A stretch of DNA of 59,705 nt from Paracoccaceae bacterium (GTDB lineage: Bacteria; Pseudomonadota; Alphaproteobacteria; Rhodobacterales; Rhodobacteraceae). The stretch covers positions 1-59,705 of the forward strand of contig CACBXB010000013.1 of NCBI GenBank assembly GCA_902543185.1, written 5' to 3'. Within the stretch, counting starts at the first letter, position 1; each line of letters begins with the position of its first letter. The translations under genes were made by a program, and so were the position numbers. This document shows, one piece after another, positions 4,329 to 15,256 of the stretch. The notes beneath the pieces were generated by a model. The model saw nothing but the letters and a program-made list of their open reading frames with translations. It had not been told where the DNA came from and searched no databases.

Positions 4329-4505
4329 CTAGCTAGATTGGCTCTCTTTGACAAAGCGTATCAGCTCACTATGTGTCCAACCAATACGGCGTTTGGAAAT
4401 CTTGATTTTCCTGAGCTTTTTAAGTTCTGTAAGCCTAAACAAAGTGCTTTTGGAAATACCAAGTAAAGTACTTGCATCTTCGGCGTTATAGACGAGTTGG
4501 TTCAT
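4329..4505 (-). CDS. AlpA-like excisionase / MerR-type HTH regulator (58 aa)
   Basis: This 58-residue protein has the layout of AlpA/Xis-like factors: an N-terminal helix-turn-helix (NAEDASTLLGISKSTLFRL) followed by a basic wing (KKLRKIKISKRRIGWTHSEL). Its ATG overlaps the integrase stop codon (TAATG), so it is translationally coupled and made with the integrase. Such proteins bend the att site and steer the integrase toward excision, and some act as transcriptional regulators. One amino-acid detail is odd: the usual Pro-x-x-x-Lys wing turn is missing. Confidence 0.8.
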   Translation of the reverse strand: MNQLVYNAEDASTLLGISKSTLFRLTELKKLRKIKISKRRIGWTHSELIRFVKESQSS

Positions 4506-5680
4506 TAAGCCTCCCTATAAAAAGTCAAAACGTTTTCGGCAGTATTGCCATCTTTACTCGTTAGCACTTCTGCCCATTTGTTAAAGATTACTCTTAGTTG
4601 ATGTGAATGGTTGGAGCGCGCGTAGATACCTGTGACAGACTTATCTTTATGTGTGAGCAAGCGTTCGACATAAAACCGATCAAGCCCGTTGTCTTCTAAA
4701 TATGTAGATAAGCCGCGTCGGATATCATGGAGCCGCCAGTCCTCTATGCCTGTAAGCTGATCAAGCTTAGCTTTGAGTTTTGAAAAGCCGCTAATGGGGA
4801 GCTCTCCGTGGGTTGTTGAAACAATATAAGGTCCAACTTTGCTACCAAGTTCTTCTATGCAAGCCCTAGCGGCATCCGAAAGTGGAATTCGGATTCTGGA
4901 ACCTGACTTGTTCCTTTCTCCAGAAACATCCAAATGATCTTCTTTAAGTTCCTCTCGGAGTAGTCGCGCAATTACATTAACGCGCTGGCCAGTAAGAAGC
5001 AGGAGGCGCACCAGAAGGCGGTTTCCTTTAGAAAGTTGATCTGTCGCTTTGTAGATTGCCCTCATCTCTGAGAGGCTTAATATCCGCGCTCGCGGCTTCT
5101 CCTTAATGACTTTTGGAATACCCGCAGCAGGATTAATCTCTATATGCGATCGACCTACACACCACCGAAAAAACTTATGGAGTAATGACAGAGCTCGGTT
5201 AGCTGTCGTTGGTGTATTCTCTCCGACTCTATCAATTAATCGGACAAGATCTGATCGTACAATATTATCTAGGGGCACTGGGCCCAGCTTCTTGAGTAAA
5301 TACCTCGTTGCTAATCTGCGATACTCATTAGCAGTCTTCTCCTTTAAATTACGAGAGAGGTGTATTTTATCGAAGCTATCCCATGCTTCAGCAAACTTAA
5401 GCTTTTGCTGACGAAGCTTTTGTTTCTCATATTGAGGATCAATTCCTTGAGCGATGAGGTATCGAGCTTCATTTGCGAGTTTGCGTGCTTTAGTGCAATT
5501 GATGGTGGGATAAGTCCCCAGCGTTAGCTTCTTATTTGAATTATTGAAGCGGTATTGGAAGCTCCATGATTTAACTCCAGCCTTTGAAATTCTAAGCTGA
5601 AGGCCTGCGCCGTCAGTCAAAGAAATCCTTTTAGTAGGATCTGGTTTGGCGTTGCGCACGGTCTGATCTGTTAACGTCAA
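4505..5680 (-). CDS. P4-type tyrosine recombinase / integrase (391 aa)
   Basis: Site-specific integrase with the arm-DNA-binding DUF4102 domain at residues 1-90 (RNAKPDPTKRISLTDGAGLQL), a SAM-like core-binding domain in the middle and the catalytic domain from about residue 210. All catalytic residues are visible: the Arg in LLTGQRVNV, HDIRR (H-x-x-R), the His in LLTHKDKSV, and the Tyr in TGIYAR. Length is normal for P4-like integrases. The start is a TTG preceded by AAGGTG. It faces away from an attP-like site 25-220 bases upstream, built on a tRNA-Lys 3' fragment. It is intact and probably functional. Confidence 0.93.
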   Translation of the reverse strand: MTLTDQTVRNAKPDPTKRISLTDGAGLQLRISKAGVKSWSFQYRFNNSNKKLTLGTYPTINCTKARKLANEARYLIAQGIDPQYEKQKLRQQKLKFAEAWDSFDKIHLSRNLKEKTANEYRRLATRYLLKKLGPVPLDNIVRSDLVRLIDRVGENTPTTANRALSLLHKFFRWCVGRSHIEINPAAGIPKVIKEKPRARILSLSEMRAIYKATDQLSKGNRLLVRLLLLTGQRVNVIARLLREELKEDHLDVSGERNKSGSRIRIPLSDAARACIEELGSKVGPYIVSTTHGELPISGFSKLKAKLDQLTGIEDWRLHDIRRGLSTYLEDNGLDRFYVERLLTHKDKSVTGIYARSNHSHQLRVIFNKWAEVLTSKDGNTAENVLTFYREA

Positions 5681-5704: not shown

Positions 5705-5966
5705 GGGCTACACTGGGGCTACATTTTTATAGCATAATTAATCTAAGGTGTGAAGAGCTTTAGCTTTTGCATCTTTGCAAACCACTGTTTTTATTGCATA
5801 TATGCAATATCTAAGACATTGATTTAGATAGGGTGAAAATAAAGAGCAACTGTCTTTTAATCAGTGGGTCACAGGTTCAAATCCTGTACGGCTCACCACT
5901 AAAATCAATGACTTAGCAGAATTTTAGAAGAGCGGAAACTCTATTGGGGAAACGCTGGGGAAACAT
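5705..5966 (+). other. attP-like integrase recognition region
   Basis: This stretch has the parts of a phage-type att site. Next to the integrase start are two copies of GGGCTACA with an 11-base period (5705-5723). Then comes the core, a tRNA-Lys 3' fragment (5843-5898). After it is a box AAAATCAATGACTTAGCAGA (5901-5920), then two copies of TGGGGAAACGC-type repeats, again with an 11-base period (5945-5966). Arm-type repeats on both sides of a core are what an unintegrated attP, or a junction between tandem elements, would look like. The arm-site reading is inference from spacing and position. Confidence 0.6.
5843..5898 (+). repeat. 3' remnant of tRNA-Lys (TTT), att core
   Basis: The bases run from the end of the D arm (AGAGC) through an anticodon loop CTTTTAA, a T arm ACAGG-TTCAAAT-CCTGT and a 3' half acceptor ending in the encoded CCA. 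The 5' acceptor strand and the D loop are absent, and one anticodon-stem pair is mismatched (T5853), so this is not a working tRNA. It is the duplicated tRNA 3' end typical of integrative elements. Confidence 0.8.
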
Positions 5967-6064
5967 TTTCCTGTAATACCAGCATATTAAGGGGTGGGGG
6001 CCAAAAACTAGCGGCTGTTAGGTTGCTAAGATACTGCTCTCACATTTATTCTGTAAAAGGTATT
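5949..6064 (+). repeat. 116-bp direct repeat, copy 1
   Basis: Starting inside the arm-type repeats and running to GGTATT, this stretch is repeated nearly base for base at 7851-7966. Its inner 42 bases (6003-6044) occur a third time at 7180-7221. It lies directly after the stop side of the racemase-family gene (about 6077). Confidence 0.85.
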
Positions 6065-6076
6065 TGTGGTTGGTTA

Positions 6077-7090
6077 CTACCAAGTATCACTTAGTGTATA
6101 GCCAGATAAAAATGGATCAGATTGATCAATAAGAAATTCGGTTTTGCCGTATATCCAAGCTCGGCCTCGCATGGTTGGTACAATAGCATCTCGTGAACCA
6201 CATTTTAAATGCTTTTTTGTGTTGGCATAAAATTGACCACCAATAATCGACTCTGATGTAATTTCTTGATCACTGTTTACCTCTCCTTTAGCGATGAGTG
6301 CCGCCAGCTGAGCAGAGGTGCCAGTTCCACAGGGCGAACGGTCAACGCGTCCTGGATAAAGAATTGTAGAAGTCTTAATTTGTGGCAATGATTTTTCCAC
6401 AAACATGGTATATTCAATACTATTTAATTCATTAAATTCTGGGTGCTGCACTGTTATTTGTTCAGAGGCGGCTTCTTTTATTGCTTTTCCAAGAGACACT
6501 AATTTTTCAGCATTCTGATTACAAATTTCAATTTGAAGTTGTGCGATGTCCACTAGCACAAAATAGCACCCGCCGAACGCCACATCGACTTTTACATTTC
6601 CTATTCCATTAACGTAAATTTCCAGATCGGAGTGTTCTAAGAAACTTTTTGGCATTTCTATTTCGACTGAAGTCACCTTTGCATCAGCGATCTTTGCATT
6701 TGCTGTTATTAAACCAGAGGGAGTATCGATTGGGACACTGCACACTGGTCCACTGCTTTCTACTAATCCAAGTTGTATAAGTGCTGTGGCTACACACATT
6801 GAGTTTGAACCAGACATAGAATGAGCACCATCTGGCTGCATGGGTATAAAACCGTATTTGGCAGCTGGATTTTTTGAGGGCAGAAGCAAGTTTACGGTCA
6901 TTTGTGACTTTCCCCTTGGTTCATGCAAACAAAATTTCAAAATGCTATCGTCAGTTTCATTTATAAACTGCATTTGCTGAAGTAATGTATCACCTGGAAT
7001 AGACGGCGCACCTTTGGTCAAAATTTGTCCAACTTCGCCTTCGGCATGAACTTCTAATATTTCGATTGAATTCTGTTTTCCCAAGTTCAC
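6077..7090 (-). CDS. Proline racemase / hydroxyproline epimerase family protein, Ser/Cys type (337 aa)
   Basis: Enzymes of this PLP-independent family racemise proline, epimerise 4-hydroxyproline or dehydrate 3-hydroxyproline using two facing thiols or a hydroxyl and a thiol. The signatures are the N-terminal VHAEGEVGQI, MSGSN, and DRSPCGTGTSA. With GTG at 7090 as start (GGAG nine bases before it), Ser93 occupies the usual first Cys and Cys254 is the second, so it belongs to the Ser/Cys subgroup, which is often linked to 4-hydroxyproline epimerisation. A longer start at 7138 lacks such a ribosome site. The gene lies between 42-base direct repeats and about 1.8 kb from a reductase-type selenoprotein gene. 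Substrate not assigned. Confidence 0.85.
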   Translation of the reverse strand: MNLGKQNSIEILEVHAEGEVGQILTKGAPSIPGDTLLQQMQFINETDDSILKFCLHEPRGKSQMTVNLLLPSKNPAAKYGFIPMQPDGAHSMSGSNSMCVATALIQLGLVESSGPVCSVPIDTPSGLITANAKIADAKVTSVEIEMPKSFLEHSDLEIYVNGIGNVKVDVAFGGCYFVLVDIAQLQIEICNQNAEKLVSLGKAIKEAASEQITVQHPEFNELNSIEYTMFVEKSLPQIKTSTILYPGRVDRSPCGTGTSAQLAALIAKGEVNSDQEITSESIIGGQFYANTKKHLKCGSRDAIVPTMRGRAWIYGKTEFLIDQSDPFLSGYTLSDTW

Positions 7091-7179
7091 AATAATAATC
7101 TCCAACTTCCCAACGTCTAGCAAATAAACCGATCTCAATAAACGGTTTTGTCGTAAGTCGTTAATATTGTGTTTGTGGT

Positions 7180-7221
7180 AAAAACTAGCAGCTGTTAGGT
7201 TGCTAAGATACTGCTCTCACA
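7180..7221 (+). repeat. 42-bp direct repeat, middle copy
   Basis: It matches 6003-6044 at 41 of 42 positions and 7905-7946 at about 39 of 42. The racemase-family gene therefore sits between two nearly identical direct repeats, like an excisable or recombined unit. The short GTTAGGT and CTAAGATACTG parts are the best conserved. Confidence 0.85.
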
Positions 7222-7344
7222 ATCTACTTCAAAAAAGCTTTTCAAATTACAATAGGTAAAGTGCAAGATTAAATTAGGTTTTGATTTAGAAGATCATCCC
7301 CCTTGTCACAAAACCTTAACGAATCTAGGGTAGAAACAGTCAAT

Positions 7345-7806: not shown

Positions 7807-7850
7807 ACTTTTTTATACTTCTGGGGCTTCCAAGAGGGATGGCTAAAAAG

Positions 7851-7966
7851 GAAACGCTGGGGAAACATTTTCCTGTAATACCAGCATATTAGGGGGTGGG
7901 GGCCAAAAACTAGCAGCGGTTAGGTTACTAAGATACTGGTCTCACATTTTTTCTCAAAAAGGTATT
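7851..7966 (+). repeat. 116-bp direct repeat, copy 2
   Basis: Near-identical to 5949-6064, including GAAACGCTGGGGAAACATTT and the inner 42-base unit (7905-7946). No tRNA fragment precedes this copy, so it is not a complete att site. Recombination between the two copies would remove the racemase-family gene and one DUF3764-like gene. Confidence 0.85.
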
Positions 7967-8039
7967 CAACTCTTCTATTGATTTTGGAGCTTTTGTTTTA
8001 GTTAGCTTATGAAACAATCTACAAAGAGGAGAAATACAA

Positions 8040-8396: not shown

Positions 8397-8657
8397 TTAG
8401 AAAAGGCCGCTACCAAAGCGACTCCCAGGTTTGAAGGCAGGCCTAACCACATCGCGCAGCGCTGCGCTCTTAAATCTTCGATCCAGTCGCTATGTATATC
8501 CGCCCACATAATCCAGCTGATAGCTATGGCTGAGGATCTGCACCATCAGGGGTCGGCTCAAATGCTTTGGGGGAGGGCGACCTACGACCTCGCGCCACTC
8601 TGCCATCAGCGCCTCCCGCGAGGCCGCGGCCAAACCATCCAGATCAAGTCTCATCAT
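8397..8657 (-). pseudogene. Decayed DUF2924 gene
   Basis: The minus-strand frame opens MMRLDLDGLAAASREAL, continues AEWREVVGRPPPKHLSRPL and MVQILSHSYQLDYVGG, then meets an in-frame TAG at codon 56. After it the frame continues with FKPGSRFGSG, recalling the family's LKPGTRL motif. DUF2924 proteins are common on phage-like and recombinase-bearing elements. The internal stop and missing C-terminus show it is broken. The region upstream to 8885 holds no other gene I can support, although the antisense stretch around 8666-8740 looks coding-like and is unidentified. Confidence 0.65.
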
Positions 8658-8885
8658 CTACTCTACTCCGTACAATCATTCGTATCGAGCAGAGCCCGAC
8701 GGTATTCGGGCACATCTACATACAGGCTTGCGGAACGAAGGAAGTCCAGTGGAAAGCTAAGGGATGGATGGATCTTTGGGCTAGTTGGTCTGAGAGAACC
8801 ATTTAGTTTGTTTCGCTTGCAGCATCGCTCCTGGCGGTGTATTATCAAACACCACCGCATTTCATTCATTTGCAGGAGATGTGAT

Positions 8886-10121
8886 TTGACCAAGATATCA
8901 GAAATGCCCGCTGTCGCTCGGGGTTTCATTTCAAATCTCGAATTGCCAGTCATTGACGATCCCTCATGGACGCAACCCGTGCCCGCAAATAAGCGGCGGA
9001 TCTCAATTGTATCGACAGCAGCTGTTCATAGGCGCGGGGATAAGCCTTTTTCCTGGTTAGCCAAAGATTTCCGGGCTTTTCATAAATCGGAGCGCGATCT
9101 GGTGATGACCCATGTTGCAGTGGAGTTTGACCGCTCAGCCTGGCAGCAAGACCTAAACACAATCATTCCACTTGAACGGCTTGAAGAGATGGCCGATGAT
9201 GGCGAAATCGGTTCGGTTGCAGAAGAGCACTATTCCTTCATGGGGGCCGCTGATCCTGTGACCATGGAAAAATCCGCTCGCCAAGCCGCCGCGCGAATGA
9301 AGCAGGACGGTGTGAATACGGTTTTTCTGATACCTATATGACCGTTTTGTACGCGCGCCGTGTGCGGGCTGGCTCATTACTTTGAATCCGAAGGTTTATC
9401 GACGGTTCTGGTTGGCTTTGTGCGCGAGCATATTGAAGCGATAAGACCGCCTCGGGCGCTGTTTCTGGATTTCCCAATGGGCCGCGGCATGGGCAAGCCA
9501 AATGATCGGGTGTTTCAGAAAAAAGTCATACGCGAGGCCTTTAGCCTGTTGGACACAGATAGCGGCCCGGTGATCAGCGATTTCCCAGAGGTCATCCTCG
9601 TGAAAGACGGACGCATGGGGTATGCGCTGCCGCCAGATCTTGTTTTGAGTGTCGAAGATATTGGCGACGTGGACGCTGTTCTGGCTGAGGTGAAGGCTGA
9701 AATTGCTGATCTGCGACCGGATTATGAGACTGCGGTAGCCGCACGAGGACGCACCACTGTCGGGGCCAGTGGGTTAGAAATTGAAGAGTTTGCGCTCTTT
9801 GTGGCTGGCTTCCTGAATGGGGAAATTCCTCAAAGCCCCAGAAAAGATATGCCGGCCATTCCATTGCTGAAGCTAGTGGTAGAGGATCTGGAAGCCTATT
9901 TCACCGAGACGCGAACGCACCGCGACAGCATTGATGATCTGGAGCTAATGGGTAAATGGTTTTGGGAAGAGAGTAAGACCGGACGGATGTTGCTTTTGCT
10001 GGAAGCCGTTTCGATCGCATCCAAAAACAAAGTGATGCTTCAGATTGTAGAAATGTCCCTTATGGCACCTCGTTTCTGGTCGGAGGGGCCATTGCCGGGA
10101 ACATCAGCAGCTGGTTGGTGA
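8886..10121 (+). CDS. Selenoprotein, glycine/sarcosine/betaine/D-proline reductase B family (411 aa, Sec152 from TGA)
   Basis: One gene is read through an in-frame TGA at 9339-9341. Before the TGA come VIDDPSWTQPVP, STAAVHRRGDKPF and EFDRSAWQQDLN, then HYSFMGAADP and VNTVFLIPI. After it come PFCTRAVCGLAHYFESEGL, IRPPRALFLDFPMGRGMG and NDRVFQKKV. All belong to the GrdB/PrdB-like selenoprotein family, with the U-x-x-C redox motif as Sec152 and Cys155. A full selenocysteine system lies next door and a hairpin follows the TGA. TTG at 8886 is the start because AGGAG lies 7 bases upstream; translation upstream of it does not resemble the family. It presumably reductively cleaves a C-N bond or acts in a related redox step; the substrate is unknown. 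The last 15 residues may be altered by a deletion joint. Confidence 0.9.
9339..9366 (+). promoter_or_regulatory. Sec codon and bacterial SECIS-like hairpin
   Basis: The TGA is followed after ten bases by a stem CGCGC (9352-9356), a five-base loop GCCGT with G at its first position, and GTGCG (9362-9366). Position and size fit the SelB-recruiting hairpins that sit just 3' of bacterial Sec codons. The pairing is read by eye. Confidence 0.5.
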
Positions 10122-10246
10122 CGCCCGCAGCAGATGGACAAATAGAGAGCAATACTGCATTAAGCACCTATTTAAAATATCTGGCGGTTGTATTGGCAGA
10201 TAATATTTTGATACATGCGTACTTTGCTTTGATTTTAGAACGCTAA
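10061..10246 (+). pseudogene. C-terminal relic of a membrane protein
   Basis: In another frame overlapping the selenoprotein end, an open stretch reads YGTSFLVGGAIAGN, continues through WLVTPAADGQ, and ends in a hydrophobic helix LAVVLADNILIHAYFALILER and a stop. It has no start codon. Good coding character with no beginning suggests a deletion fused the selenoprotein 3' end to the tail of a transporter-like gene. The family was not identified. Confidence 0.35.
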
Positions 10247-10262
10247 TAAAGGTTTACTCACA

Positions 10263-11330
10263 ATGTCCTCCATACCTTCTCTTACCAGTTTGGCGAAATC
10301 AGCAGGCTGCGCTGCTAAGATTGCGCAAGCCGATCTCGTTAAAGCACTGAACCATCTGCCCAGATCGGAGGATCCCAATTTGATAGTGGACCACGCAGGA
10401 TCAGATGATGCTGCAGTTTATCGGCTTACGGCCGAACTGGCGCTTGTAGAAACAGTTGATATTTTCCCACCTATTGTCGACGATCCATTTGATTATGGAC
10501 GAATCGCAGCTGCTAATGCACTTAGTGATATTTATGCAATGGGCGGAAAGCCAATCAGTGCACTCAGTTTTGTTGGCTGGCCAGTCGAAGTGTTGGGTAT
10601 GGATCAACTTGGCTCAGTATTGAAGGGTGCCGCCAGCATTTGTAGTCAAGCCGGAATTGCGATTGCTGGTGGCCATTCAATTGTAGATAGTGAGCCAAAG
10701 TTTGGTCTATTCGTGACCGGCTTGTTACATCCAGAAAAAATCATTGATAATGCTGGTGCGCGAGCAGGTGATTATTTGGTTTTAACCAAAAAGATTGGAA
10801 CAGGCGTATTAACGACTGCAGCCAAACGTGGATACTTGCCAACTACCGGTTTAGATGAGGCAGTCGCATCGATGACCACTCTAAATTGCGCCGCAGCATC
10901 CGTAATGTTGTCTCAAAACATAAAGGCTGCGACAGACGTTACTGGTTTCGGCCTACTTGGGCATCTTGGCAATATGCTTAAAGCATCTTCAATAGCTTCT
11001 CAAACTACACTTGGAGCAAACCTATCCTACTCTAAAATACCCCTATTCGAAGGTGTAGAGGCGCTCCTAAAGCAAGGTCTCTGTCCCGCTGGTACTCGCC
11101 GAAATCTTGAAACTGCAGCACCACTAACAGAATTTTCTGCCAGTATCAGTTCAAGCCATCAACTTCTTTTGGCTGATGCGCAGACCTCCGGTGGATTACT
11201 TATGGCAGTACCCGAGGCGCATCTAGAGGCCCTAATAAGCCAACTTCAAGAGAATACGGTTGCAAACTGCGCAGTGATTGGCCAAGTTGTACGATCAACT
11301 GAACCAGCTTCCATTAAAGTTGGATACTAG
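10263..11330 (+). CDS. selD: Selenophosphate synthase (355 aa)
   Basis: SelD makes selenophosphate from selenide and ATP, the donor used by SelA. The conserved active-site segment carries Cys16 and Lys19 (AGCAAK), where many homologues have Cys or Sec, so this one is the Cys form. Also present are DDAAVY, NALSDIYAMGGKPISA, AGGHSI, DVTGFGLLGH and DAQTSGGLL, all in family order, at normal length. ATG follows AAAGG. It lies 141 bases after the selenoprotein and converges on the selA-selB-selC operon. Confidence 0.97.
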   Translation: MSSIPSLTSLAKSAGCAAKIAQADLVKALNHLPRSEDPNLIVDHAGSDDAAVYRLTAELALVETVDIFPPIVDDPFDYGRIAAANALSDIYAMGGKPISALSFVGWPVEVLGMDQLGSVLKGAASICSQAGIAIAGGHSIVDSEPKFGLFVTGLLHPEKIIDNAGARAGDYLVLTKKIGTGVLTTAAKRGYLPTTGLDEAVASMTTLNCAAASVMLSQNIKAATDVTGFGLLGHLGNMLKASSIASQTTLGANLSYSKIPLFEGVEALLKQGLCPAGTRRNLETAAPLTEFSASISSSHQLLLADAQTSGGLLMAVPEAHLEALISQLQENTVANCAVIGQVVRSTEPASIKVGY

Positions 11331-11406
11331 AAGATCCAGAACGCACACAACCTAAGTCACCTTGTGCTAATTAAGCTTCACTTTTGTAATGCACAGAATA
11401 AGTATT

Positions 11407-11502
11407 TGGCGAAAGAGAGTGGGAGTCGAACCCACCAAGGACGTTGTACGCCCCTCACTAGATTTGAAGTCTAGGCGCCCCACCAGGGTGCGATCCTCTT
11501 CC
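11407..11502 (-). tRNA. selC: tRNA-Sec (TCA)
   Basis: The 96-nt minus-strand RNA has an 8-base-pair acceptor stem (GGAAGAGG against CTCTTTC with G-U pairs), anticodon stem-loop CTAGA-CTTCAAA-TCTAG with anticodon TCA, a long variable arm, a T arm GTGGG-TTCGACT-CCCAC, discriminator G and an encoded CCA. The length, long extra arm and 8-bp acceptor are diagnostic of selenocysteine tRNA. Its 5' end directly abuts the selB stop codon, so it is most likely processed from the selA-selB transcript. Confidence 0.97.
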
Positions 11503-13443
11503 CTATCTAACATCAGATGATACCATGAAAACATCTTTCACGGAACGCCGAATATAACGGGTGTTGCCATTTCTTTCGGTGAAACCGATCTGGTCGAAAT
11601 ACTCCAAAACATCTATGACAAAGTTTCGGCCCAGCGTCGTTTGCTTCCGATACTCGGCAGTCGTGAAACACCGATCAGCAGAATTTGCTGCCAGCCGCTC
11701 TGCAACTACGCCAAGCTTTGCCACGAAGTGCGTTGGCGCATAGCGATTTTTACCAATCAAAACCATTTTGCCTAATCTACTGGCCGTTTTCAGAGTCATT
11801 TCCAGGGTCTCAAGATCAACTTTCAGATCCGCCGCGGCCTGATGCAGGCTGAGCGGCGTGCCTGACCGTGGCGCAAGTTTGGGGGCCACACGGTCGAGAA
11901 GCTGCTGGTCTCGCACGGAGATGCGGATGTTGTGCGATGGCAAATGAAAGCGGGTGCCACGGCTGTTCAATCGCTGCTCTTCGACCAGAGTACCAAGCAA
12001 AACTTCAAGGATTGAAGTCTCGATGTGGGGCGAGAGCGCCAGTTGAATGTCCTTGACGCTCGCACCAGGCGACATCGGCTTCGAGCGATGAAATCCCTTA
12101 ACCGCTCCAACAACTTTGGCACCTAGCCTGTGCCATTGTGTTTCGCAGAAAACCCGTTGCTTTGATTGTTGGCCCACCCGCCGCAAACTAAGCCTATCAA
12201 TCAGCATGTCTAACCGTGGCGCAGGAAGATTGTATGCAACTGAAAACGGAGTAAGCAGGACCCCAGTTTCGCTGCCGTCGGTCAGTGCCCTTAGGGCATC
12301 AGTGACGTTTCGATGTTGCATAGCGTTCAGCGCCGCAATCCGGGCGGGCCTTGCGCGCCCACGTTTTGGGGAAAAAGGATCAATCACGCGTCCACCAGCA
12401 ATCGTGCGTTGGGCAGACTGATCGCGTAGCACAAAAGTGTCGCCATGAACTGCAAAGGCATCCCGCGAAACCACCAATTGAGCCAATCCTTGCCCACCCG
12501 CAGGGATAGCACCGCCTGACAAAACTGCGACGCGGGCGGACAGATGATCAGCACCGATATGCAGATGGGTAGGTGTCCAGTGTTTTAGTGGGCCAGTTTC
12601 GCTCGCCAGCACTTTCACCTCGACGTCGATGCGCCGTGTCGGGGCGTACAAACTGGGATGCATCAGCCAGTTCCCACGGCGAACGACCTCTTTGTTCAGG
12701 CCACGGCCGGCGATGTTGATGGCACATCTCTCTCCTGCCTTTGCACCATTACTTGCAGTATTGTGCGCCCTGATCCCGCGCACACGAACTTGGGATCCAT
12801 CAGTCGAGAGTGTCATACTTTCGCCTTTACGGACGGCCCCAGAAAAGACCATTCCAGTGACAACCAAGCCAACACCTTTCAGCGTGAACACCCGATCTAT
12901 GGACATACGAAAATGATGCTCGGCTGTCCAAGCAGCGCTCGCTGCCTTTACACGCGACTTCAGCGCTTTCATCAACTCCCCAATGCCTTGGTTTTCAGGC
13001 GCACAGACGGGATAGATGGTAACGCCCTCATGCCCTTGGGCAGTCAAAAGTCTATCCACTTGATCAGCAACGTCGTAAACACGGCCAGACGACACGCGAT
13101 CAATCTTGGTTAGCGCGACGATATACTGGCGAATCTCCATTAGGCTCAATATGGCAAGATGCTCGCGTGTTTGCGGCATTACCCCATCGTCAGCTGCAAC
13201 CACAAGCAAACCTAAATCGATACCCGCGACACCCGCAAGCATGTTGCGAATGAAATTGTCATGACCAGGGACGTCAACGAACCCCAAAATTGTATTGTCG
13301 GGCAGAGTATGGTAGGCGAAACCCAGATCCACAGACAACCCTCGGGCTTTTTCCTCCAGGAGACGGTCTGTATCAATTCCGGTCAACGCCTTTACGAGTT
13401 CGGTCTTGCCGTGGTCCACATGTCCTGCTGTCGCTATGATCAT
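11503..13443 (-). CDS. selB: Selenocysteine-specific elongation factor SelB (646 aa)
   Basis: SelB is a GTPase that delivers Sec-tRNA to UGA codons carrying a SECIS hairpin. G motifs are clear: GHVDHGKT at residues 7-14, DVPGHDNF near 57, and TKID near 112. EF-Tu-like beta-barrel domains follow, then C-terminal winged helices for hairpin binding (for example [13 protein letters not shown]). It is slightly longer than the E. coli protein (614 aa). Its ATG overlaps the selA stop by four bases (ATGA), and its TAG ends one base before tRNA-Sec. Codon use is G+C-richer than in genes outside the region, suggesting transfer. Confidence 0.97.
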
Positions 13444-14834
13444 GGCATCTCCAGATCTTGTAGGTTTCGGACAAACGCCTCCTCGTCTTCAAGACATCTG
13501 AGATCAAACCAAAGTGCATCATCGGAAATGCGTCCAATCACTGGAATTGGCAATTTTCGAAAAGCCTTGGCAAGCCTGTTCAACGCAGCACCGGGGCGGC
13601 GCACATCCGGCCGCGTTATCTTGAGAGCAGCGCTTTGCAATTTATCGATTGGCAGGGCCCCGCTGCCCACCTGGCTGTGGGTTTGTGAGACCGCAACTTC
13701 AAATTTTTTGCAACAGTCTTGAAGGACCGAGGCCAAGCGGCCAGCTAATTGTTCGATTTCTACAGGGTTGCGCGTCAAAAGACGCAATGTCGTGAGCTCA
13801 TCCGTCAGGCGCTCGGGGTTGGTGTATAACCTCAGAACAGCTTGCAGGGCTGCCAAGGTGATTTTGTCTGGCCGCATGGCCCGGGTCATGGGGTTACGTT
13901 TGAGTTTGTCGATAAGATCGCGGCGGCCCGCAATAATGCCCGCCTGTGGCCCACCCAGCAGCTTGTCACCACTAAATGTCACCAGATCTGCCCCTGATGC
14001 CAAAGCTTCTGTGACAGTAGTTTCGTGCGGCAGATTGTAGGGCTCTAGGTCAATCAAAGTGCCGCTTCCCAAATCTGTGATAAAGGGTAGATTGTAACGA
14101 TGCGCGATCCCCGCAAGGTCCTTCTCCGAGACGCTTTTGGTAAAGCCTTTTATCTCAAAGTTGCTTGTATGGACCTTCATTAGCAATGCGGTTTTAGGAC
14201 CGATCACAGCGTCGAAATCTGCTCTATGAGTCCGGTTGGTCGTCCCAACTTCCACCAACTTGCATCCTGCACGTGCCATGATGTCCGGCATGCGGAAGGC
14301 TCCACCGATCTCGATCAGTTCGCCACGTGAAACAGGTACCTCCTTGCGTTGGGCCAGGCTGTTTAGCGTCAGCAACACGGCTGCTGCATTGTTATTTACA
14401 ACAAGCGCGCCTTCCGCCCCAGTTAACTGGCACAGCAGAGCTTCGGCATGCCTATGCCGATCACCGCGTTTACCCGTTTCCAAATCAAATTCCACGTTAC
14501 TTGCGCCGCGCGAAACATCCACCATCGACTGTATCGCGGATTGAGGCAGGGGTGCGCGGCCAAGATTGGTGTGCAGCACAGTGCCTGTCAGATTGTAAAC
14601 TGGACGAAGTGAGGGGAGCAAAATATGCTCAATCTCTTCGGACAGCGATTGGATCAGCGTAGCCATATCTGTAGACTCACCAGCCAGAACCCTAAGTCGC
14701 GCCCGCGCCAAGATACTCTGAGCACAGCGTGTGACCAAGGCCAGGCCATGATCACACGCGAAATTCTGCACAGTTGGCGTGTTCAAAAGGCGATCAACCG
14801 AAGGCAAATATTGTGGCGACTCTATGCGTGTCAT
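13440..14834 (-). CDS. selA: L-seryl-tRNA(Sec) selenium transferase (464 aa)
   Basis: SelA is a PLP enzyme that converts Ser-tRNA(Sec) to Sec-tRNA(Sec) with selenophosphate. Motifs include [45 protein letters not shown] and the PLP-lysine segment [13 protein letters not shown] (Lys near 290). ATG at 14834 is taken because AAGGAG ends 5 bases upstream; this gives 464 residues against 463 in E. coli. A start at 14903 would add 23 unlike residues. It is the first gene of the selA-selB-selC operon. Like selB, it is G+C-richer than its A+T-rich surroundings. Confidence 0.97.
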
Positions 14835-15118
14835 CTCTACTCCTTGCAGCAGGCACTGTGAGAATAACCCAGCTTCCCTGCTATTGAAATGGGGCTTAGC
14901 CATTCAGCTATGTCCTATCCAATATCCTTCCGCGATTTCAAAACCAGTCCCGAGATCATCCAACTTTCAGTTATGCTTCATATAAGGTTTCCACACGCTG
15001 CTGATGACTAAGTTCGCGGGACTGCAAGCACCGCCATTATCTTTATTTTTTTTCTATTAAATCAATGGGGAATGGGTAAGAAATTTAATATTTTTTCAAT
15101 AACTTATTGAGTATGTAT
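14835..15118. other. Gene-free stretch upstream of selA
   Basis: I see no supported gene here. It should hold the selA operon promoter on the minus strand, and base composition drops from G+C-rich to strongly A+T-rich at about 15030, which marks the inner edge of the acquired selenium module. Confidence 0.5.
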
Positions 15119-15256
15119 ACTGATTTGTAATCAGTAGGTCCGCGGTTCGAGTCCGTGTGGGGGCACCACTTCCAAATAATTACTTCAATAAAATCAATAA
15201 CTAAGCAGAAATAATATATAAACCTGTAAAGCCATGGGTTCCAAATGGGTTCCAAA
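15119..15256 (+). other. att remnant: 3' tRNA-Thr (TGT) fragment with box and arm repeats
   Basis: Bases 15119-15168 are the 3' half of tRNA-Thr: anticodon stem-loop ACTGA-TTTGTAA-TCAGT, T arm CGCGG-TTCGAGT-CCGTG, acceptor TGGGGGC and ACCA. No 5' half is present. Box AAAATCAATAACTAAGCAGA (15190-15209) is 18/20 identical to the box after the tRNA-Lys fragment. Two tandem copies of TGGGTTCCAAA follow at 15235-15256 with an 11-base period. The box-to-repeat distance is 45 bases here and 44 there. No integrase is present on this side. I read it as the end of a second integrative element of the same class. Confidence 0.75.

Follow-up and report, generated by a model that had tools for sequence, protein, structure and literature searches.

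The window analysed here, a stretch of 59,705 nucleotides from a marine Paracoccaceae bacterium, contains two adjacent open frames on the forward strand (8526-9341 and 9360-10121) that lie in one and the same reading frame. The sole stop codon between them is a TGA at 9339-9341, and joining them requires no frameshift. The first-pass annotation had read the pair as one gene split by this TGA with a U-x-x-C site at the join, and the joined frame bears this out, reading I-P-I-U-P-F-C around the TGA. The gene thus contains one in-frame stop, compared with a mean of 18.8 in base shuffles of its sequence (lowest 8 in 2000 shuffles). Frames, relatives and profile matches delimit a prdB-like gene of 411 codons at 8886-10121 (plus strand), whose start is likely the TTG at 8886 rather than position 8526: in all 42 close-clade sequences, the window included, the start-codon column holds ATG (18), TTG (12) or GTG (12), and a Shine-Dalgarno-like AGGAG (8874-8878, plus strand) is situated 7 bases before the start, with a similar purine run in many relatives. 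Starting at 8886, the TGA would encode selenocysteine (Sec) as residue 152, the first of UPFC, which is the numbering proposed earlier and agrees with the start common to the 42 close-clade sequences.

The same annotation had placed a full Sec system next to the gene, and each of its components scores above a curated cut-off. Downstream lie selD (10263-11330, plus strand; TIGR00476, 367.7 bits, cut-off 125), selB for the Sec-specific elongation factor (11503-13443, minus strand; TIGR00475, 406.5 bits, cut-off 242.25) and selA for Sec synthase (13440-14903, minus strand; TIGR00474, 583 bits, cut-off 267.9). The window's SelD has a cysteine at what we take to be the Sec/Cys position of this protein, and presumably is the Cys form. 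The tRNA-Sec gene selC (anticodon UCA; 11407-11502, minus strand) was detected by ARAGORN and by Rfam (RF01852, 71.7 bits). It starts at the base following the selB stop codon (minus strand, window 11407-11505), an arrangement also found in the congener G003; selC-in-selB overlaps are described in sections of PMC8124441, and the abutment of tRNA-Sec and selB seen here is a neighbouring case.

Matches to the gene were found in 8 of 61 genomes near the window and in 50 of 385 genomes of its class, the window's own genome being counted in both. The earlier suggestion that aligned relatives should carry Sec or Cys at the TGA column was confirmed in 19 aligned long-form sequences, with TGA in 16 (window included) and Cys in three (L038, L052 and L053). 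L009 also has Cys at this column, and the scan of the 385 genomes revealed more distant class relatives without any in-frame stop. Among relatives in named genomes the column holds TGA in 80 of 80, these being the best-scoring 80 of 420, and ranking the 420 by likeness to the window gene may favour Sec forms among them; one of the two search patterns used in that scan demanded Cys at the Sec column. One relative (L114) contains an additional TAA inside the matched stretch. The clostridial PrdB (WP_083399465.1, L171), which is annotated on a plasmid together with prdA, likewise contains an in-frame TGA at this column, such that Sec aligns on Sec. Several class genomes (e.g. G116, G131, G223, G231, G317 and G395) hold up to four PrdB-like matches each, most of them with an in-frame TGA, as an expanded selenoprotein family.

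The codons that follow the TGA are frozen at the synonymous level. The 42 close sequences reduce to 36 distinct ones over the 63 bases from the TGA on, and codons +4 to +9 read ACG CGC GCC GTG TGC GGG: codons +4, +6 and +7 are invariant across the 36 and codon +5 is shared by 35, while at +8 and +9 every sequence that retains the commonest residue uses one and the same codon for it (30 and 29 of 36). Within 50 codons of the TGA there are 53 sites at which at least four synonymous codons are possible, and of these, positions +4, +5, +6, +7 and +9 are the only ones at which a single codon reaches at least 97% in the 42 sequences; at the remaining synonymous sites the commonest codon averages 0.46 and never exceeds 0.69. 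The same codons recur in 39 more distant relatives (CGC in 39 of 39, ACG in 35 of 39, GCC in 36 of the 38 having that residue). We take the frozen codons, at 9351-9368, as marking a putative SECIS hairpin within the reading frame (9349-9373, plus strand), in which columns 15-20 of the family alignment would pair with 26-31 around a loop containing GU, a pairing that fits nearly all sequences.

It is the frozen codons that carry the argument for this element, not folding energy or covariation. Compensated pairs are few: two stem pairs are changed on both sides, from G-C to A-U (67 distinct sequences; 30 in a second analysis), L124 breaks two hairpin pairs, and 44 of the 67 have a non-standard pair at 17-29. 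Covariation is slight, with changes on both sides in 3 of 270 cells, a value as high in 1 of 500 shuffles. The number of double-change pairs and the covariation score were matched by 33 and 32 of 500 shuffles, respectively, further pair types were reached by all 500, and sliding the structure by 2 columns gave as many double changes as the family pairing. The window's hairpin on its own is not significantly stabler than its shuffles, of which 26 of 200 did as well (z -1.23). Its minimum-energy fold is not the one given by the family pairing, and an Rfam search around the TGA matched no family save for one chance-level lncRNA match. When a SECIS model was scanned over 10 carrier genomes, each gave one strong match, with the next best at E 0.16. 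We do not claim that the gene is the sole client of the decoding machinery, because 150 candidates were scored per genome and a client with another type of SECIS would be missed.

The distribution of the gene within the genus follows that of the decoding factor. The gene is present in 6 of 16 congeners and SelB (at least 52% identity) in the same six; the other ten have weak SelB matches only, which we take to be other GTPases (Fisher p 1.2e-4 over the 16 genus genomes, kinship ignored). SelA occurs in 5 of the 16; the remaining carrier, G011, has a contig that breaks off within selB. In eight of ten carriers FdhA passed its cut-off and had no in-frame stop; in the window's genome and G003 no match exceeded the cut-off. 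Under the standard code the locus does give two open frames, as it would if a nonsense mutation or sequencing error had split a Cys gene, or if these were two separate genes. Such an origin would have to accommodate a TGA common to all of the best 80 of 420 relatives, frozen codons after it and carriage of SelB by the same six congeners; in our view it is already refuted by the relatives, and we assign it a negligible probability. The Sec column, the Cys variants, the SECIS and the co-occurrence with SelB together give strong support to the selenoprotein reading, and we consider it almost certain that the UGA at 9339 is read as Sec.

Profile searches place the protein in the GrdB/PrdB superfamily. 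It matches PF07355 at 31.3 bits, above the gathering cut-off of 22, and all 19 aligned sequences match this family at E 0.001 or better. The best NCBIfam match is the PrdB equivalog TIGR04483, at 97.4 bits against a cut-off of 300, followed by weaker matches to TIGR01918 (36.4 bits, cut-off 65.45), GrdH (42 of 775) and GrdF (39.7 of 800). The PrdB match spans residues 10-222, and about 190 further residues lie beyond it; this C-terminal part is largely common to the aligned relatives, Cys forms included, and is lacking in clostridial PrdB. The predicted structure (pLDDT 83, pTM 0.85) combines an alpha/beta portion with a helical C-terminal portion, and residue 152 falls between a strand (145-149) and a helix (153-168). 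Among solved structures, a profile search returned nothing at E 1 and Foldseek against the PDB returned nothing at E 0.001 (best 0.013).

Two assignments within the superfamily were weighed against this architecture. The gene could encode a true PrdB subunit of D-proline reductase, as its best NCBIfam match and a proline-racemase-family gene nearby (6077-7138) might suggest. However, the protein reaches one third of the PrdB cut-off, and PrdA was found in 0 of 30 genomes, partly incomplete and searched without a positive control, and in 0 of 171 other sequences, which are stretches, many overlapping, searched with a real PrdA query that did match the control plasmid of L171. The racemase gene falls below all six NCBIfam cut-offs listed and lies outside the block shared with G003, and was rejected as a functional partner on the latter ground. 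Clostridial PrdB is homologous to the window protein over its N-terminal part of about 220 residues (29% identity), with Sec followed by xxC at the same column, but it is a protein of 241 residues encoded one small gene away from prdA, whereas the window protein is about 190 residues longer and has no PrdA on the stretches compared. We regard a true PrdB as very improbable. Membership of GrdB, GrdF or GrdH, as a component B of glycine, sarcosine or betaine reductase acting with protein A and a pyruvoyl subunit, has in its favour the weak matches to GrdH, GrdF and TIGR01918, and these enzymes share PF07355 and the UxxC site with the window protein; yet each of the three NCBIfam matches is far under its cut-off and covers part of the profile, and this assignment is improbable too, if a little less so. 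The GrdB/PrdB family named in the first-pass annotation therefore holds for the broad superfamily, as supported by PF07355 and by the alignment of Sec on Sec with clostridial PrdB, but the evidence does not support a strict GrdB or PrdB enzyme, with TIGR04483 and TIGR01918 both below cut-off and no PrdA found.

The gene and its decoding machinery lie in a 6.3-kb block (8795-15077) that matches G003 at 99% between otherwise unrelated flanks; in the 20 kb compared, the only match outside the block is one 63-base piece. The G+C content of the selenoprotein gene, selB and selA is 52.5-53.7% and that of selD 47.0%, against 41.5% for the whole window. Among 41 close-clade loci (L064-L104, on the stretches compared), selB and tRNA-Sec are near the gene in 33; of the eight misses, four (L074, L078, L094 and L099) are positioned at a contig end or close to one, and the other four (L089, L091, L093 and L095) are flanked by 4 kb or more on each side. 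Of 39 more distant loci, 5 have SelB next to the gene. On this evidence the block is very probably a mobile Sec-decoding cassette.

Comparison with relatives points to movement of the cassette and to exchange within it. Roseovarius aestuarii KCTC 22174 carries a protein about 95-96% identical to that of the window; for the gene, selB and selA, protein identities are 96, 74 and 85% with R. aestuarii and 84, 57 and 76% with the congener L069. The window's selD is closer to its counterparts in congeners (77 to 99%) than to that of R. aestuarii (38%). This component seems to have been swapped inside the cassette, because the selD slot in R. aestuarii and EL129 holds an open frame of 733 to 738 residues, the C-terminal part of which matches SelD. 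In the Roseovarius-type cassettes L066 and L102 the frame in this slot lies at 9326-11527 and 9306-11522, respectively. In a protein tree of 43 rows, built with a quick method, the window and G003 are nested together with R. aestuarii and the bin L065 (support 100); Rhodobacterales, SAR116 and some gammaproteobacterial bins are intermingled in it. Transfer of the cassette between classes is likely, but not proven because bins can contain foreign contigs.

At the right edge of the block, 15117-15169 (plus strand) resembles the 3' half of a tRNA-Thr gene and is a candidate attachment-site remnant; ten congeners have an exact match to 50 of its bases, and ARAGORN detected no tRNA-Thr in the window. 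An integrase gene lies at 4505-5680, and the proposal that it and the tRNA-Thr fragment are the ends of one integrative element was not borne out; the window contains no second copy of the fragment. In eight close congeners (L145-L152), a search for an empty site upstream of the nitroreductase gene found no upstream stretch matching that of the window. This stretch is of one type in L146, L148 and L149 and partly of another in L145 and L152, and because some congeners share upstream sequence types we claim no clean empty site; the region is possibly an integration hot spot. L151 has another tRNA-like 3' end upstream of its nitroreductase gene. Elsewhere in the window a 117-base repeat occurs in three copies (5948-6064, 7125-7241 and 7850-7966; 62% and 93% identical to the reference copy) that flank the proline-racemase-family gene and a DUF3764 gene, with a second DUF3764 gene adjoining.

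In G011 the selenoprotein gene comes after a run of uptake and breakdown genes of choline/betaine type. The run encodes an aldehyde dehydrogenase, a 690-residue double ProW-like permease, ProV, OpuAC and BetI, together with what we read as a drug/metabolite-type transporter, a choline-dehydrogenase-type protein and a small protein without family. It also encodes a GcvT-like protein, which matches the terminal part of TMAO demethylase best, an S/N-oxide reductase of BisC/TorA type and a lyase resembling CitE/RipC. NCBIfam cut-offs were passed only by ProV (336.7 vs 326.6), BetI (PRK00767, 134 vs 118) and the choline-dehydrogenase subfamily (730 vs 605), the other names being best matches under their cut-offs. 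Larger parts of this cluster are near the gene in G012, G007, L085, L090, L091 and L100, in differing order, and one to three cluster genes in G009, L072, L087 and L089; altogether the gene is near part or all of the cluster in 11 distinct genomes, G011 included. The remaining close-clade loci have no cluster beside the gene, some because the contig is short. In the window's genome, 10 of 12 query cluster genes are on another contig (G000:C2:1-18000).

The cluster and the gene also tend to occur in the same genomes. Within the genus, the GcvT-like gene (at least 56% identity) occurs in all 6 carriers and in 2 of the 10 remaining congeners (p 0.007), and the permease (at least 60%) in 5 of 6 carriers and in 2 of the 10 others, where it is partial or has an in-frame TAA. 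At a cut of E 1e-60, set beforehand, the GcvT-like protein was found in 19 of 21 carriers, which we chose from the 41 close loci, and in 1 of 20 family mates, these being 20 of the 21 available, with G019 excluded for having a distant relative. This cut admits paralogues, and in the genus would give 6 of 6 carriers and 4 of 10 others; a stricter one chosen afterwards (E 1e-97, rounding allowed) gave 16 of 21 carriers and 1 of 20 family mates. Taxonomy is a confounder in both comparisons, because the controls come from the window's family only and are unmatched to the SAR116 and gammaproteobacterial carriers. The pathway link consists of neighbourhood and co-occurrence among carriers that are related and partly incomplete.

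Individual genomes depart from the pattern. G006, which is 96% complete, has cluster genes and no selenoprotein. G013, one of the two congeners counted above as non-carriers with cluster genes, may be a missed carrier, because its contig, of 8872 bases, ends just after the citE-like gene, at the point where the selenoprotein gene follows in its relatives. On this contig (L168, G013:C53) the S/N-oxide reductase is represented, between the GcvT-like gene and the CitE-like one, by a 53-residue piece (7810-7968); because just this piece matches, the cluster in G013 seems to be decaying or rearranged. On the stretches compared, no osmolyte cluster accompanies the gene in R. aestuarii or in three other loci of Roseovarius type, and the best GcvT-like match of R. 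aestuarii has an in-frame TAG.

The best-supported role for the protein is one in the breakdown of a choline- or betaine-like osmolyte, a proposal to which we give about even chances. It is based on proximity of the gene, in several lineages, to a ProXWV-type transporter, BetI, a BetA-like dehydrogenase, GcvT/TMAO-demethylase-like proteins and a BisC/TorA-type reductase. The protein could instead be a general thiol/selenol redox protein, thioredoxin-like and acting for example against oxidants, with no tie to a catabolic pathway. A UxxC motif would suit such a function, as would the Roseovarius-type loci without an osmolyte cluster and the fact that, the sel genes aside, no neighbouring gene cluster is common to most of the 100 stretches compared. 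Nevertheless, the choline/betaine cluster does recur, with its order rearranged, in loci titled Alpha- and Gammaproteobacteria, it co-occurs with the gene in the genus, and the studied members of the superfamily are substrate-cleaving reductases (PMC13188914). We consider the general redox function unlikely, though appreciably less so than either strict family assignment.

The explanation that we favour overall, by a modest degree of confidence, is that of a cassette-borne selenoprotein acting as a UxxC reductase on an osmolyte-linked substrate. According to this model, SelB carrying Sec-tRNA would bind the RNA element after the UGA and insert Sec. The block would have moved as a Sec-decoding cassette among marine Alphaproteobacteria and probably Gammaproteobacteria. 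In the protein, the selenol of Sec152 would act together with Cys155 as a UxxC selenol/thiol reductase, and its substrate may derive, as a weaker part of the model, from choline- or betaine-like osmolyte breakdown. Betaine reductase chemistry proceeds by selenolate attack on the carbon next to an onium group. By analogy, and speculatively, the selenolate might attack the carbon beside an onium group and release an amine or sulfide; cleavage of a C-N or C-S bond in this way is a doubtful extension of the model.

Marine selenoproteins named PrdB have been published since 2005. A 'proline reductase PrdB' with UxxC, represented by 42 genes, was among the most abundant selenoproteins in the Sargasso Sea (2005; PMC1088965), and PrdB (pfam07355; 235 Sec and 110 Cys forms) was again among the most abundant in the GOS study (2008; PMC2398784). 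The window gene shares with them the family name, pfam07355 (GOS) and UxxC, and likely belongs to the same subfamily. In the portions of these papers available to us, proline reductase is assigned by name and PrdA, a cassette or an osmolyte link is not mentioned. It has been argued that the Sec trait is transferred only when clustered with one or more selenoprotein genes, in most cases fdhA or selD (PMC1794560, in part). The moved selABC and fdhA clusters described in sections of that paper and of PMC5029168 likewise bring Sec machinery and a selenoprotein gene together; the passenger there is mostly fdhA or selD, whereas in the window's cassette it is the PrdB-like gene, which looks like an exception with a different passenger. 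A full-text literature search, with papers available in part, returned none on the cassette or the osmolyte link. What is added here to the published marine PrdB is the putative SECIS, the cassette and the pathway link, and to the first-pass annotation the long C-terminal part, the transferable cassette and the choline/betaine link.

We tentatively propose, as a possibility short of even odds, that the abundant PrdB of the open ocean is a Sec enzyme of aerobic choline/betaine-type osmolyte degradation and not a proline reductase, spreading between orders and classes as a self-contained cassette capable of serving a single client. For two decades a widespread marine selenoprotein has been named for an enzyme of anaerobic amino-acid fermentation. 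If the window gene belongs to the same subfamily, its anatomy would point to osmolyte metabolism instead, tying oceanic selenium to the turnover of choline- and betaine-like compounds. The 6.3-kb block would be a minimal unit, one client together with its decoding machinery, through which a lineage could gain the 21st amino acid.
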